From Synechococcus sp. MU1642 (lineage in GTDB: Bacteria; Cyanobacteriota; Cyanobacteriia; PCC-6307; Cyanobiaceae): 44,403 nucleotides of DNA. The DNA is taken from positions 1-44,403 of the forward strand of contig NZ_VTKZ01000014.1 of the NCBI RefSeq assembly GCF_020514115.1. The letters run 5' to 3'. The stretch's first letter is position 1. The number at the start of each line of letters is the position of its first letter. The notes below the pieces were generated by a model. That model was not told where the DNA came from, searched no databases, and was given only the letters and a program-made list of their open reading frames with translations. The position numbers were made by a program, and so were the translations under genes. This document shows positions 8,329-32,747 of the stretch, in pieces.

Positions 8329-8337
8329 GTGTGAGGA
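8329..8337 (+). promoter_or_regulatory. Predicted Yfr1 sRNA pairing site overlapping porin A RBS
   Basis: GTGTGAGGA at 8329-8337 serves as the Shine-Dalgarno region (GAGGA, 6 nt before ATG 8344). It is the exact reverse complement of UCCUCACAC, the core of the ultra-conserved motif of the cyanobacterial small RNA Yfr1. Yfr1 is known to repress som porin mRNAs in Prochlorococcus by pairing at the start region. The pairing here is inferred from sequence only; the yfr1 gene itself is not in this window. Confidence 0.6.
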
Positions 8338-8343
8338 ATTCAA

Positions 8344-8780
8344 ATGAAGCTTTTCCAGCAACTGCTGGTGGCTCCTGCCGCCCTTGGCCTTCTGGCCACC
8401 GGCGCCAATGCCGCCGAGCTGAACATCAACGGCGTTTCTGATTACGCGGCTTCCGCTGATCAGGTCACCAGCGTCACCCAATTCTCCGACGTTTACCCCA
8501 CCGACTGGGCCTATCAGGCTTTGGCTGGTTTGGTTGAGACCTACGGCTGCGTCGCCGGCTACCCCAACGGCACCTTCCGTGGTAACCGGGCCATGACCCG
8601 CTTCGAAGCGGCTGCCCTGCTGAACGCCTGCCTCGATCGCGTCACCGAAGTGACCGACGAGCTGCGTCGCCTCATGGCTGAGTTCGAGACCGAGCTGGCC
8701 ATCCTTAAGGGTCGCGTTGATGGCCTCGAGGCCCGCGTCGGCGAACTGGAAGCAACTCAGTTCTCCACCACCACAAAGCT
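8344..8780 (+). repeat. Direct repeat copy 1: porin 5' block
   Basis: This 437-nt stretch encodes the signal peptide, SLH domain and coiled coil of porin A. It recurs at 9981-10418 with only three kinds of difference by eye: CAA to TAA at codon 6, and TAC to TTC plus one inserted C at 10177-10179. Identity stops abruptly at AAAGCT on the 3' side, where the barrel begins, and at the ATG on the 5' side. Confidence 0.95.
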
Positions 8781-9771
8781 CAAGGGCTACACCGCTTGGG
8801 TTGCTGGTGCTGTTGACGGCATCGATGGCTCTGAAGCTACCACCCTCAACTACGACCTCCGCCTCAAGCTGGCTACCTCCTTCACTGGTAAGGACCAGCT
8901 GACCACCGTTCTGCGGTCCGGCAACTTCAACGATTCCATCTTCGGCACTGGCCTGACTTTCGTTGAAACCGCCATGAGCAGCGGTAACAGCGTGAAAATC
9001 GGCCGCTTGTTCTACACCTTCCCCGTTGGTGACTCTTTGAGTGTCACTGCAGGTCCCATCGTCCGTACGGACGATGCTTCCATGTACGCCGGCTATGCCA
9101 CGTATTACCCCTCTGACCTGCTGCTGGACTTCTTCACCTACGGCGGTGCTCCTACCACCAACAACCTGGCTTACACCGGTTCTGGTATTGGAGCTGTCTA
9201 CACCCTGGGTGATAGCGGCTTCAAAGTGAGTGGTAACTACGTTGCTGTTGATGGCGACGATTCCTCTAAGGGCATCGGTACCGACGACGGCACCACCACT
9301 TCTTCTTGGCAGTTGTTCTACGAAGGCGAAGTCTTCGATGGCAACCTCCTGGCTCAGGTTGGTTATTCCTACGAGCAGAATGCTGGCCTGGCTATTGGCA
9401 CTGCTTCGACAACCGCTGACCGTAGCGGCTACAGCGTTGCTGCTGCCTGGAAGTCTGCTGATGCGGGATTCCTTCCCTCGATTAGCACTGGCTATTCATG
9501 GGCCGATGTAGACGGCACCTCCGACGACATTGACTCTTGGTATCTGGGCCTTGAGTGGAGCGATGTGTTCATCGAAGGCAACTCCTTCGGTGGCGCAATC
9601 GGTGAAGCTCCTAGCTTCGAAGATGAAGACTCCAGCACCATGTGGGAACTCTTCTACAGCTTCGCTGTGACCGACAACGTCACTATCACTCCTGCCATCT
9701 TTGGCATTGATGATGGTGGTGACGCCGATGAGGTCTTTGGTGGCTTGGTTAAGACGACCTTCGTCTTCTGA
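8344..9771 (+). CDS. som: SLH-domain outer-membrane porin (Som type)
   Basis: 475 residues from ATG. Residues 1-23 are a Sec signal peptide (cut after ANA). An SLH domain spans about 46-95 (FSDVYPTDWAYQALAGL ... GYPNGTFRGNRAMTRFEAA), which in cyanobacterial porins anchors the protein to peptidoglycan. A short coiled coil follows (about 97-138, LRRLMAEFETELAILKGRV), then a β-barrel of aromatic/Gly-rich strands ending in a terminal Phe (TTFVF), typical of outer-membrane insertion. This matches the OprB/Som family, the abundant porins of marine Synechococcus. The 5' 437 nt are repeated almost perfectly in the next gene, but the barrel is not. Its leader has a predicted Yfr1 site and a terminator follows the gene, so it is probably monocistronic. 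Confidence 0.95.
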   Translation: MKLFQQLLVAPAALGLLATGANAAELNINGVSDYAASADQVTSVTQFSDVYPTDWAYQALAGLVETYGCVAGYPNGTFRGNRAMTRFEAAALLNACLDRVTEVTDELRRLMAEFETELAILKGRVDGLEARVGELEATQFSTTTKLKGYTAWVAGAVDGIDGSEATTLNYDLRLKLATSFTGKDQLTTVLRSGNFNDSIFGTGLTFVETAMSSGNSVKIGRLFYTFPVGDSLSVTAGPIVRTDDASMYAGYATYYPSDLLLDFFTYGGAPTTNNLAYTGSGIGAVYTLGDSGFKVSGNYVAVDGDDSSKGIGTDDGTTTSSWQLFYEGEVFDGNLLAQVGYSYEQNAGLAIGTASTTADRSGYSVAAAWKSADAGFLPSISTGYSWADVDGTSDDIDSWYLGLEWSDVFIEGNSFGGAIGEAPSFEDEDSSTMWELFYSFAVTDNVTITPAIFGIDDGGDADEVFGGLVKTTFVF

Positions 9772-9814
9772 TAGTAAGAATTTGGGGTCCCTTGGATCCT
9801 CATTTTCGGGAACT

Positions 9815-9845
9815 GCTCTCCACTTCGGTGGGGAGCTTTTTTTTT
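9815..9845 (+). terminator. Rho-independent terminator of porin A
   Basis: Stem GCTCTCCAC (815-823 of the 9 kb block) with GTGGGGAGC at 9828-9836 (one T-G wobble), UUCG tetraloop, then a nine-T run. It is 44 bp after the porin stop. Confidence 0.9.
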
Positions 9846-9964
9846 GGCGGATGGCGGATGGTCTTAACCGATACATAAACGCTGCTTCGCTAGTCCTTAC
9901 TGAAAAAGTGATGTCACATCAATATCTTCGAAGCTCCGGCATGTCTTGCTGGAACTGTTCTCAT

Positions 9965-9972
9965 GGTGTGAG
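9965..9972 (+). promoter_or_regulatory. Weaker Yfr1-like pairing site before porin B
   Basis: GGTGTGAG at 9965-9972 complements CUCACACC, the 3' part of the Yfr1 conserved motif. It lies 8 nt before the ATG at 9981. The match is shorter than at porin A because the following GGA is missing, and the sequence gives only a poor Shine-Dalgarno. The surrounding leader otherwise differs from that of porin A. Confidence 0.4.
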
Positions 9973-9980
9973 ATTCCAAA

Positions 9981-10418
9981 ATGAAGCTTTTCCAGTAACT
10001 GCTGGTGGCTCCTGCCGCCCTTGGCCTTCTGGCCACCGGCGCCAATGCCGCCGAGCTGAACATCAACGGCGTTTCTGATTACGCGGCTTCCGCTGATCAG
10101 GTCACCAGCGTCACCCAATTCTCCGACGTTTACCCCACCGACTGGGCCTATCAGGCTTTGGCTGGTTTGGTTGAGACCCTTCGGCTGCGTCGCCGGCTAC
10201 CCCAACGGCACCTTCCGTGGTAACCGGGCCATGACCCGCTTCGAAGCGGCTGCCCTGCTGAACGCCTGCCTCGATCGCGTCACCGAAGTGACCGACGAGC
10301 TGCGTCGCCTCATGGCTGAGTTCGAGACCGAGCTGGCCATCCTTAAGGGTCGCGTTGATGGCCTCGAGGCCCGCGTCGGCGAACTGGAAGCAACTCAGTT
10401 CTCCACCACCACAAAGCT
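9981..10418 (+). repeat. Direct repeat copy 2: porin 5' block
   Basis: A 438-nt near-perfect copy of 8344-8780, offset by 1637-1638 bp. The sharp ends at the start codon and at the coiled-coil/barrel junction suggest gene conversion or a recent tandem event that homogenised only the anchor-encoding part. Confidence 0.95.
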
Positions 10419-11484
10419 AAAAGGAAAAGTCACCTTTGTAACTGGTGCCATTGATTCCCAGGACGATGGTGCCAAGGCTGATAACGACAAATTCAGCTTC
10501 TCTTACGACTACCGTCTCGGCCTGAAGACCTCCTTCACTGGAAAGGACCTTCTGTTTGCTCGCCTGCGTGCCGGCAACATGAAAGATGGTTCCGCTTTCT
10601 CCGGTGGCTTCCGAAAGTTGGATGTTTCCGGTATGTCCGGTAACACCCTTAAGTTGGACCGCCTGTACTACAAGTTCCCGGTCGCTTCAGGCTTTGAAGC
10701 CATCGTTGGCCCAATGGCCCGTAACACCGAAAGCCTTGGCATGAAGCCCACGGCTTACACGGTGAAGACCCTGAACATGTTCGGTGGGCAGTTTGGTGCT
10801 GGCAATGTCTACACCAAAGAGACCGGCGGTCTCGTTGGTGTGATCTGGAAGCAGAAAGTTGCCAAGGGTGAGCCCCGCCTGACAGCTGCTTTGAACTACG
10901 TCGCTGATGACGGAGAACAGGCCGATTCTTCTAAAGGCATGTTTACTGCTCAATCCAAGGGCAATACCACCGCTCAGATCGGTTACGGCACCAAAAAGTG
11001 GGGCGCTGCTCTCGGTTACCGCTATGGCCAGTGTGGTGCAGGCTTCGGCACCGCCTACAAGTCTGTTAAGCAGAGCTGTGGCAGCGACAATGTCGACTCC
11101 CAGAACTTTGCTCTGAACGGCTTCTGGAAGCCTGAAGAGACTGGTTTCATTCCTTCTGTAAGCCTTGCTTATGGCTGGTCTGATCTCGAGGGCAGCACCG
11201 TCGACGAGGCCCGCACTTGGATGGTGGGTCTGCAGTGGGACAAAGTCGCCAATACTCCCCACAGCCTGGCTGTTGGTTTCGGCGCCCCCCTTTATGTCGA
11301 GTCCCAAGACGGCACTGATCCCGATGCTCCCGAGCTTGCTTGGGAAGCCTCTCTGAAATACAAGGTCTCCAAGAACATCACCATGATTCCGGCAATCTTC
11401 TATCTGCCTGAGTCCAGCTCCAGCCAGGGCGTATCTGGTAAGGAGCAGTTTGGTGCCGTCCTCCAGACCGTCTTCAAGTTCTGA
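9981..11484 (+). pseudogene. som: Second Som-type porin, disrupted by nonsense codon and frameshift
   Basis: ATG 9981 opens the same MKLFQ sequence as porin A, but codon 6 is TAA (9996-9998) where porin A has CAA. An extra C in the CCC run at 10177-10179 then shifts the frame inside the SLH domain. From about 10171 an open frame continues without further stops through the rest of the SLH domain, the coiled coil and a full β-barrel to TGA at 11482-11484, ending in FKF as porins do. The barrel is unrelated in detail to that of porin A and has two Cys (QCGAGFGTAYKSVKQSCGS). Restart at the GTG at 10005 would bypass the stop codon but not the frameshift, and would cost the basic N-terminus of the signal peptide. 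Either a recent pseudogene, a silent cassette, or sequencing errors; the intact barrel argues that any inactivation is recent. Confidence 0.85.
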
Positions 11485-11597: not shown

Positions 11598-12566
11598 ATG
11601 AGCATTGCTCCTGACATCACCGCCTTGATCGGCGGTACACCTCTGGTGAGGTTGAACCGCTTACCTCAGGCCTCCGGTTGCCAGGCCGAGATTCTGGCCA
11701 AATTGGAAAGCTTCAATCCTTCCGCCTCGGTGAAAGACCGCATCGCTAGCGCCATGGTGCTTGAGGCGGAGCAGGCCGGCACGGTCGTTCCCGGCCGAAC
11801 GGTGCTGGTGGAGCCCACCAGCGGCAACACCGGGATCGCCCTGGCCATGGTGGCGGCGGCCCGGGGGTACCGGCTCATTCTCACCATGCCGGACACCATG
11901 AGTACTGAGCGTCGCGCGATGTTGCGGGCCTATGGCGCCGAGTTGCAGCTCACCGATGGTGCCCAGGGCATGAATGGGGCCATCGCGCTGGCCAAGGAAT
12001 TGGTGGCGGAGATCCCCAACGCCTATCTGCTTCAACAGTTCGATAACCCGGCCAATCCAGCCGTGCATGAACGCACCACGGCTGAAGAGATCTGGCGCGA
12101 TACCGAGGGCCAGATTGATGCCTTTGTGGCAGGGGTGGGGACTGGCGGCACCATCACCGGCTGTGCCCGTCTGTTGAAACAGCGCCAGCCTCAGCTTCAG
12201 GTGATTGCCGTTGAGCCCGAGGCCAGTGCTGTGCTTTCAGGTAAGCCCCCTGGGGCTCATCGTATCCAGGGGATTGGGGCTGGTTTTGTTCCTGTGGTGC
12301 TGGAACTGGACCGGATTGATTCGATCCTCACGGTTAGCGATGAGGAGGCGATGCAGGTGGGCCGGAGTTTGGCCCGGGAGGAAGGTCTGCTCTGCGGGAT
12401 CAGCAGTGGCGCGGCAATGGCAGCGGCCCTTCGGGTGGGCCAAGACCCCTCGATGGCGGGCAAACGCCTGGTGGTGATGCTGGCTAGTTATGGCGAGCGA
12501 TACCTCTCCACCCCGATGTTTAGTGCTGCGTCGCAACTCCCCGCTCGGAGGGATGGTCAGCTGTGA
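11598..12566 (+). CDS. cysK: Cysteine synthase (O-acetylserine sulfhydrylase)
   Basis: 322 residues, the usual length. It makes L-cysteine from O-acetylserine and sulfide in the cytoplasm. Visible features: [10 protein letters not shown] at 11-20, the PLP-binding Lys in [11 protein letters not shown] (K46), the substrate loop TSGNTG (74-79), the phosphate-cradle GTGGT (181-185), and the Ser of CGISSGAA near the C-terminus. ATG 11598 is the only sensible start. The stop overlaps the GTG of the DnaJ-domain gene (GTGA), so the two are translationally coupled. CysK versus CysM cannot be settled by eye; the C-terminal YLSTPMF tail fits CysK (Y-L-S-T-x-L/M-F). Confidence 0.93.
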
Positions 12567-31939: not shown

Positions 31940-32347
31940 ATGACCACCACCCCGGAAGCACCGGCATCCACCGCCGCGGCGATGGATGCTCTGGATCAGC
32001 GACTTTCCCAGCGGTTCATCGCTCTGGATCCCAGTGGCTATTTCTTGATCAAGCTGGATCGTGAAGCCGCCGAACTGGTGCTGGAGCGTTACTGCAACAC
32101 CATCGATGACAAGGGGTTGGCCAGGGATTCGGAAACCGGTGAGGTGTTGCGCTGCGACGGCGGCAATCCTCCACGGCGTCCCTCAGCCGTCTATCGCGGC
32201 AATACAGCTAAACAGCTGGGCATTCAGCTCACGGAAGGCGAAGGCCCACACCCGGTCACTTGCCTCGACCATGCTCTCTATCTGGGGAGGGAGTTGCAGA
32301 AGGCCGAGCAGTGCCTGCGCGATGGCACGGTCTATGTCCAGGACTAA
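31940..32347 (+). CDS. DUF4346 domain protein
   Basis: 135 residues from ATG. After a short Thr/Ala-rich start, RFIALDPSGYFLIKLDREAA, NTIDDKGLARDSETGEVLRC and the final TCLDHALYLGRELQKAEQCL ... VYVQD match the DUF4346 family of cyanobacteria, also found joined to a thymidylate-synthase-like domain in some bacteria. No catalytic function is established. Last gene of the rightward run; stop at 32345-32347. Confidence 0.85.
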   Translation: MTTTPEAPASTAAAMDALDQRLSQRFIALDPSGYFLIKLDREAAELVLERYCNTIDDKGLARDSETGEVLRCDGGNPPRRPSAVYRGNTAKQLGIQLTEGEGPHPVTCLDHALYLGRELQKAEQCLRDGTVYVQD

Positions 32348-32384
32348 CGATCAGGCGGGCTGCAGTTCTTTTGTTGCCGTGGAT

Positions 32385-32510
32385 TCAACCGGTCTCCCCC
32401 CGTTCCAGGGCATCTAGGAACATCGACAGGGTGTTTTCCCCTTCGTCGAGAATTTTTTCGTAACTCCAGAAAGTCTTCGGGAACTCTGGATAAACGAAAA
32501 GAGTGCGCAT
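32385..32510 (-). pseudogene. Remnant of a B12-binding radical SAM gene
   Basis: A 41-codon frame on the minus strand, ATG at 32510, TGA at 32385-32387. It begins MRTLFVYPEFPKTFWSYEKI, which is the N-terminus of a widespread cyanobacterial B12-binding-domain radical SAM family (those proteins run on through ELVNRKVLLPPLG). It then jumps directly to LDEGENTLSMFLDALERGET, which resembles the end of the same B12-binding domain (L-x-x-G-E-x-T-L-P-x-F-L-E-A-L). The ~100 residues normally between and the whole radical SAM domain are missing. The simplest reading is an internal deletion plus loss of the 3' part. Family recognition is from memory of the motif. Confidence 0.6.
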
Positions 32511-32596
32511 GGCCTCGGGCGTTGGTGGATGGACGTCTGGTTGGCCTTGCTGGAGATACTTTTCAATCGGTGTCAGCTGCTCACAAACCCAAAGCG

Positions 32597-32620
32597 CACT
32601 GGCCTGAACCCAGGCCAGTG
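32597..32620 (+). other. Perfect 9-bp inverted repeat upstream of petL
   Basis: CACTGGCCT (32597-32605) and AGGCCAGTG (32612-32620) with a 6-nt GAACCC loop. No T run follows on the plus strand. It may be a terminator or barrier between the DUF4346 and petL transcripts, or a leader structure for petL. Confidence 0.5.
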
Positions 32621-32654
32621 GGTGATCTAATGGTGATCACCTCCGTACTTGCAC

Positions 32655-32747
32655 ATGGGCGTCGGCATCTATCTCGGCCTGGTTGGTTCTGGTCTGGTGA
32701 CGGCTTTTGTGCTCACCAAGCTGCTCAAGGGAATCAAGCTCATCTAA
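32655..32747 (+). CDS. petL: Probable cytochrome b6f complex subunit PetL
   Basis: 30 residues, MGVGIYLGLVGSGLVTAFVL followed by a basic [10 protein letters not shown] tail. One transmembrane helix and a C-terminal L-K-G/x-I-K-L-I end agree with PetL, the small hydrophobic stabilising subunit of cytochrome b6f. It is too short to be found by length-based gene calls. It has a leader with CACTGGCCT inverted repeat upstream; its 3' end overlaps the convergent MFS gene by 8 bp. The alternative is another one-helix thylakoid protein. Confidence 0.68.
   Translation: MGVGIYLGLVGSGLVTAFVLTKLLKGIKLI

Follow-up and report, generated by a model that had tools for sequence, protein, structure and literature searches.

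Porin genes of a marine cyanobacterial cell tend to share a near-identical first third, very likely copied between genes, and their exposed pores differ and are lost or replaced in sister species

The comparison of porin genes that we report here, which starts from a tandem pair in one marine cyanobacterium, makes it very likely that the wall-anchor module of these proteins evolves in concert by recombination between the porin genes of a genome. The same anchor homology can also delete the barrels that follow it, and probably helps to replace them.

The window analysed is the whole of contig C11, a stretch of 44,403 nucleotides belonging to a draft genome (G000) of 2.117 Mb in 22 contigs. It carries, in tandem and on the forward strand, as are their parts, their leader motifs and the gene downstream, two porin genes. 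Porin A (8344..9771) is intact, encodes 475 residues and combines an SLH domain near the N-terminus (Pfam E 4.8e-10; 7.3e-06 in the frame-shortened B) with an OprB-type barrel (Pfam 3.2e-17 in A, and 1.7e-11). Its anchor block (8344..8780), delimited by repeat comparison, Pfam and structure prediction, is followed by a barrel of type T6 (8781..9768) for which 16 strands are predicted. In the predicted monomer model (mean pLDDT 72) strand 1 of the barrel starts at residue 143, so that the block shared with B corresponds to the signal peptide, the SLH domain and the stalk; the latter, a predicted coiled coil, is modelled as helices at residues 105-121, and residues 123-140 have a pLDDT below 50. 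Copy B (9981..11484), recognized by comparison of reading frames and repeats, is broken in its anchor block (9981..10418, one base longer than that of A) and open in its barrel of type T5 (10417..11481), which contains no internal stop and is 86-91% identical in nucleotides to its orthologues in G004, G013 and G028. The alignment locates the break in a TAA stop at codon 6 (9996..9998, C to T) and in a frameshift (10177..10181) made of an inserted C (10177-10179) and an A-to-T change (10181). A motif scan finds GTGTGAG, the complement of the Yfr1 seed, 15 nt before the start codon of each copy (8329..8335 for A, 9966..9972 for B). The gene downstream (11598..12566), which from its appearance we take to be cysteine-synthase-like, marks by synteny the locus called here LOC1. 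Elsewhere in the window, at about 32344-32743, the genes of 524-525 codons that G028 and G022 hold between the same neighbours have no match.

The 437 nt of A (8344-8780) are repeated in B (9981-10418), from which they differ by two substitutions and by one base that B has in addition. The block runs to codons 146-147, and up to there no synonymous difference was found between the copies. The nucleotide alignment confirms what the sequence-only reading of this locus had described: a recurring block of that length with a substitution at codon 6, a second substitution, one insertion and no synonymous drift. Each difference either disables B or belongs to the frameshift event. Exact identity begins 2 nt before the start codons and continues for 8 nt within the codons of the KL-G boundary; the barrels of A and B are 52% identical in nucleotides. 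The anchor of A differs from those of three sister genomes at 14-16 of about 93 silent sites, so that chance or slow drift fails to account for its identity with the anchor of B. Moreover, A and B have in common three states, at 8603, 8757 and 8775 (alignment positions 254, 408 and 426, the window coordinate being 8349 plus the position), which are absent from the 32 anchors of eight sister genomes. Orthologues of barrel A are present in G013, G004 and G024 and those of barrel B in G013, G004 and G028, both barrels having separate orthologues in G013 and G004 at 81-91% nucleotide identity. Because the barrels have orthologues elsewhere and the private anchor changes are common to A and B, the duplication must be old and the identity between the two copies young, which points to conversion and not to duplication as its origin.

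To place this pair, we collected the porins of 18 genomes of the genus, one of them being G000. Their flanks define LOC1, the locus of the tandem next to the gene at 11598, as well as LOC2, LOC3 and a small number of additional loci. LOC1 holds from one to four or more copies per genome, of several barrel types, and the LOC3 barrel is of type T1 in 14 of 14 cases. The window's genome has a third intact porin (C15:285731-287260), and its LOC2 is a remnant (L005 1524-2113; G000:C15:271524-272112) left by a clean deletion that removed some 970 bp retained in G028; among the matches found, two intact porins of the SLH-OprB kind are left in this genome. Silent sites and trees were studied in 12 of 19 genomes at least 90% complete, the others being diverged and partly masked (G005, G006, G007, G021 and G025) or fragmented (G030 and G033). 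This set retains 44 of its 45 rows, the one at 757101 in G024, with an anchor identity of 61-62%, having been dropped, and copy B is absent from the trees.

Anchors of different loci within one genome differ at a median of 4.8% of their silent sites (pS 0.048; 56 pairs, 12 genomes), and tandem anchors at 3.2% (pS 0.032; 8 pairs). Between genomes, the anchors of the same locus reach a pS of 0.238 at LOC2 (45 pairs) and 0.328 at LOC3 (66 pairs), so that at silent sites paralogues are closer within than between genomes, with the exceptions given below. The barrels, compared within genomes, stand at 0.676. The trees of the 44 genes give the same picture: that of the anchors requires 16 changes of genome label (the minimum being 11) and 21 changes of locus label (20.3 on average when labels are shuffled), and that of the barrels requires 38 changes of genome label and 4 of locus label, which is the minimum. 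The barrel tree, with these 4 locus changes, makes the paralogues older than the similarity of their anchors. The sequence-only reading had proposed a local conversion restricted to the anchor. Conversion is upheld by the private changes, the silent sites and the trees, but its confinement to the tandem pair is not, since unlinked loci are linked in the same way: anchor identity reaches 99.8% between LOC4 and LOC1 of G002, 99.8% between LOC3 and LOC1 of G004 and 99.3% between LOC3 and LOC1 of G001, and in G004 and G002 the tandem anchors are less similar to each other than those of one unlinked pair. The same reading would have taken an equal identity with porins elsewhere in the genome as a sign of general conservation; this applies by half, the unlinked third anchor of the window's genome being 95.9% identical to A, against 99.5% between A and B.

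This homogenisation extends beyond the genus and is uneven across genomes. Eight genomes from six other genera were picked, among the matches listed in 71, for carrying several anchors of like score, and are therefore not a random sample; in seven of the eight, anchors are closer within the genome than to those of the other seven. In G046, three loci share 99.8-100% anchor identity and the nearest of the seven other compared genomes is at 76%. The exception is G080, whose values within the genome (90.6-97.3%) do not clearly exceed the 92.0% to another genome, that of its nearest relative. Within the genus, the exceptions are the third anchor of the window's genome (pS 0.15), the anchor pairs of G024 (pS 0.17-0.22, with the one diverged copy mentioned above) and the LOC2 anchors of G013 and G028 (pS about 0.20). 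The five more diverged genomes agree in part, and all five also carry diverged copies: anchor identity is 82-91% among three anchors of G007, 87% in G006, 94-97% among three copies of G005 (partly masked), and, in both G021 and G025, 99-99.8% for one anchor pair and 79-80% for the first copy.

The ends of the shared tracts were compared in 28 homogenised pairs of equal length. At the 5' side, 16 pairs share at least 19 exact nt upstream of the ATG and the rest 0-3 nt, so that the sharp edge formerly described at the start codon is true of A and B and is not general. At the 3' side, identity mostly stops 5-14 nt from the TTTKL codons. The tracts are thus bounded near the ATG and at the barrel, and in LOC4/LOC1 of G002, where 659 of 660 nt are identical, the tract continues into a barrel of the same type. 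As far as the alignments can tell, the tracts would stop wherever homology gives out, which is what homologous recombination would lead one to expect. The motif GTGTGAG stands at -13 to -17 in 50 of the 56 porin leaders; the six leaders devoid of it belong to two genes whose starts were mis-called inside barrels, two LOC2 genes and two T11 copies. Yfr1 itself is found in the window's genome with 67.5 bits (cut-off 38). Together with the repression of PMM1121 by this RNA in Prochlorococcus MED4, these data suggest that most of these porins probably have one common small-RNA control, and conversion need not reach the leader for this control to persist.

The comparison of the locus between sister strains, which the sequence-only reading had recommended, reveals joints of two kinds. 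LOC1 of G028 consists of one gene that begins with the flank, the leader and the anchor of A and continues with the anchor, the barrel and the downstream gene of B; an A-type barrel was not found in G028, in which three matches have 55-57% identity. To judge from its sequence, this gene has the structure expected of a crossover between tandem anchors. As the joint is taken from a draft assembly, a collapsed repeat is possible, and the lost barrel would then be expected elsewhere. The second kind is seen between G024 and G002, both of which are closed, single-contig genomes. Identity along LOC3 is mostly 90-100% in the flanks, 93-100% in the anchor and 60-82%, by windows, in the barrel, and it returns to 98-100% immediately beyond the gene; the first copy of LOC1 has a similar profile, with a dip to 77-86% just upstream. 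The pS values are 0.184 for the anchor and 0.653 for the barrel at LOC3, 0.158 and 0.655 at LOC1, and 0.141 for rpoB; the LOC2 barrels of the same two genomes differ by a pS of only 0.20. Barrel values of 0.65, above those of the anchors (0.16-0.18) and of rpoB (0.14), show replacement of the barrel and not selection on the protein. The LOC3 barrel of G013 has a pS of 0.253 to G002 and 0.718 to G004, and its anchor shows the opposite order (0.220 and 0.164). A barrel swap in one step by recombination in the anchor had been anticipated: joints of this nature exist, between species, in the G028 fusion and the G024/G002 replacement. In the rpoB tree, in which 8 of the 16 inner branches are starred, G000 and G028 have G022 as their closest neighbour, yet the barrels that G022 carries at LOC1 match the types of G002, G008 and G023; LOC1 barrel content is at odds with this tree, which comes from a single gene and is too little to serve as a species tree.

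Several other explanations have to be weighed against concerted evolution. Purifying selection on the anchor, codons and RNA included, might keep the copies alike without recombination, and between species the protein sequence of the anchor does change little (pN 0.04-0.05). However, the silent sites of the anchors diverge by 24-33% between genomes and the anchors sort by genome, not by locus; silent sites and trees rule out such selection as the sole cause, and we consider it very improbable. The least probable reading of all is that A and B are a recent tandem duplication whose barrels diverged fast, which the tandem order and the near-perfect 5' identity would recall: it is ruled out by the separate orthologues of both barrels in G013 and G004, and the barrels have diverged at silent sites as well. 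More serious, albeit unlikely, is the possibility that an assembly artefact at the 437-nt repeat created the identity of A with B or the two lesions of the latter. The genome is a draft, the two events in B are both disabling, an improbable pair by chance, and near-identical anchors do break short-read assemblies, as illustrated by Prochlorococcus MIT 0701, in which contigs L201, L202, L207 and L208 end inside anchors 98-100% alike, the 100 nt upstream not being alike. Against an artefact, the contig spans both copies, and 32 of the 36 G028 open reading frames that match the window are uninterrupted, the exceptions being the porin, one antisense frame and two small ones. The deletion that took most of the LOC2 porin from the window's genome is clean, and closed genomes display the same anchor identity together with broken porin copies; these tandem or extra copies lie at L065 about 1100-2765 in G024 and at L072 (1998311-1999890) in G025, both of them single-contig genomes.

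Copy B had also been viewed as a silent barrel cassette, a donor for the antigenic variation of A comparable to pilS or vls. The break of B upstream of an open barrel and the exact 5' homology that joins it to A are in line with this idea, which we nevertheless judge very improbable and reject in view of B's own expression signals and the one-sided homology. B has its own start codon and its own leader, in which a Yfr1 site is present, where a donor devoid of expression signals would be expected, and its orthologues are intact in G013, G004 and, as a fusion, G028. Such an exchange also involves homology to the left and to the right of the variable part, which is missing here: the comparison of A with B yields a long repeat at the 5' side only, no homology flanking the barrels in 3', and 51 nt at 76% inside them, so that a two-sided swap would be without its second crossover site and a single crossover would delete instead. 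The pN/pS of barrel B is 0.10-0.19 against its three orthologues, and that of intact pairs is 0.08-0.20; this likeness and the open barrel suggest that the break is recent or an artefact, and B has the appearance of a normal porin gene, interrupted in this strain or mis-assembled. Finally, phages or grazers using the porins might drive the loss and replacement of barrels, the common anchor being maintained for that exchange. Barrels of the same locus do differ sharply between sisters with alike flanks, and broken or deleted copies are recurrent; nutrient uptake is equally able to drive such change, the homogenisation of the anchors, whatever its possible benefit, may occur simply because nothing prevents it, and a single scan of viral contigs from porin A found no relative of it. 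We regard this explanation as doubtful, to about the same degree as the artefact.

In the model of concerted evolution that we favour, each cell holds several SLH-OprB porins at separate loci, and homologous recombination between their genes, presumably gene conversion of the RecA type, would repeatedly overwrite the 5' third encoding the signal peptide, the wall-binding SLH domain and the stalk. The outcome is the observed 5' third, near-identical within the genome. The barrels would be too diverged to recombine mutually and would therefore retain the identity of their locus, and for the same reason the conversion tracts would stop at strand 1 of the barrel and, on the other side, at the start codon or a little upstream of it. 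Crossing over between tandem anchors would delete a barrel and fuse one leader to the barrel of the next gene. At some loci, a different barrel has come to stand between the conserved anchor and the 3' flank, the anchor possibly acting as the source of the 5' crossover. In the window's strain, if the assembly is right, B would have been converted recently and then broken.

In Helicobacter pylori, gene conversion between the bab and hom genes is reportedly credited, in a review, to Pride and Blaser in 2002. These genes offer the closest precedent in the excerpts available: in babA/babB and homA/homB, one segment is closer within a strain than between strains owing to gene conversion between loci, and recombination makes chimeric genes (PMC3960876). 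The likeness lies in the paralogous genes for surface proteins, the segment alike within the strain and the chimeras. According to the same excerpt, however, it is the 3' segment of the H. pylori genes that is homogenised while the 5' or middle part diverges, in contrast to the 5' wall-anchor module here, which moreover concerns up to five loci per genome in a whole cyanobacterial family, with barrels of about 50% nucleotide identity. The architecture itself is known: the SLH-OprB type is described with an N-terminal SLH domain, a coiled-coil stalk and a C-terminal barrel (PMC10628300), and our porins resemble in SLH domain and barrel, and perhaps in their stalk, the cyanobacterial Som porins and the OmpM of Veillonella (PDB 8bym, 8byt, 8bys and 8bz2), the available part of that description making no mention of gene conversion between paralogues (PMC10628300). 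As for regulation, excerpts on Prochlorococcus MED4 present PMM1119 and PMM1121 as duplicates with a Yfr1 target in the leader, and Yfr1 represses PMM1121 in a reporter assay (PMC6778093). Our porins are likewise duplicated with a Yfr1 site in the leader, but two duplicates are described there, against several loci with homogenised anchors here. In the open-licence literature searched, no title or abstract matched the conversion of cyanobacterial porin anchors.

In conclusion, if this reading is true, the proteins that chiefly govern permeability in very abundant marine phototrophs would evolve as two modules with different tempos, a uniform tether being shared cell-wide and the barrels remaining specific to their locus. 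Whole-gene porin phylogenies would then mix two histories, and the breaking or loss of porins at anchor repeats in draft assemblies would be explained. Could the wall-anchor module even be a standing recombination adapter? We put this forward as a tentative idea, less likely to be right than wrong: the 5' module would be continually re-stamped on every porin gene, and a barrel from another locus or another strain, whether it brings such a module or recombines into one, would at once receive the signal peptide, wall ligand and stalk of its host cell, and often Yfr1 control. If so, the surface of these cyanobacteria would be modular, with barrels lost, gained or replaced in single steps, possibly under the pressure of phages or grazers, and this would provide a concrete and checkable route for surface change.
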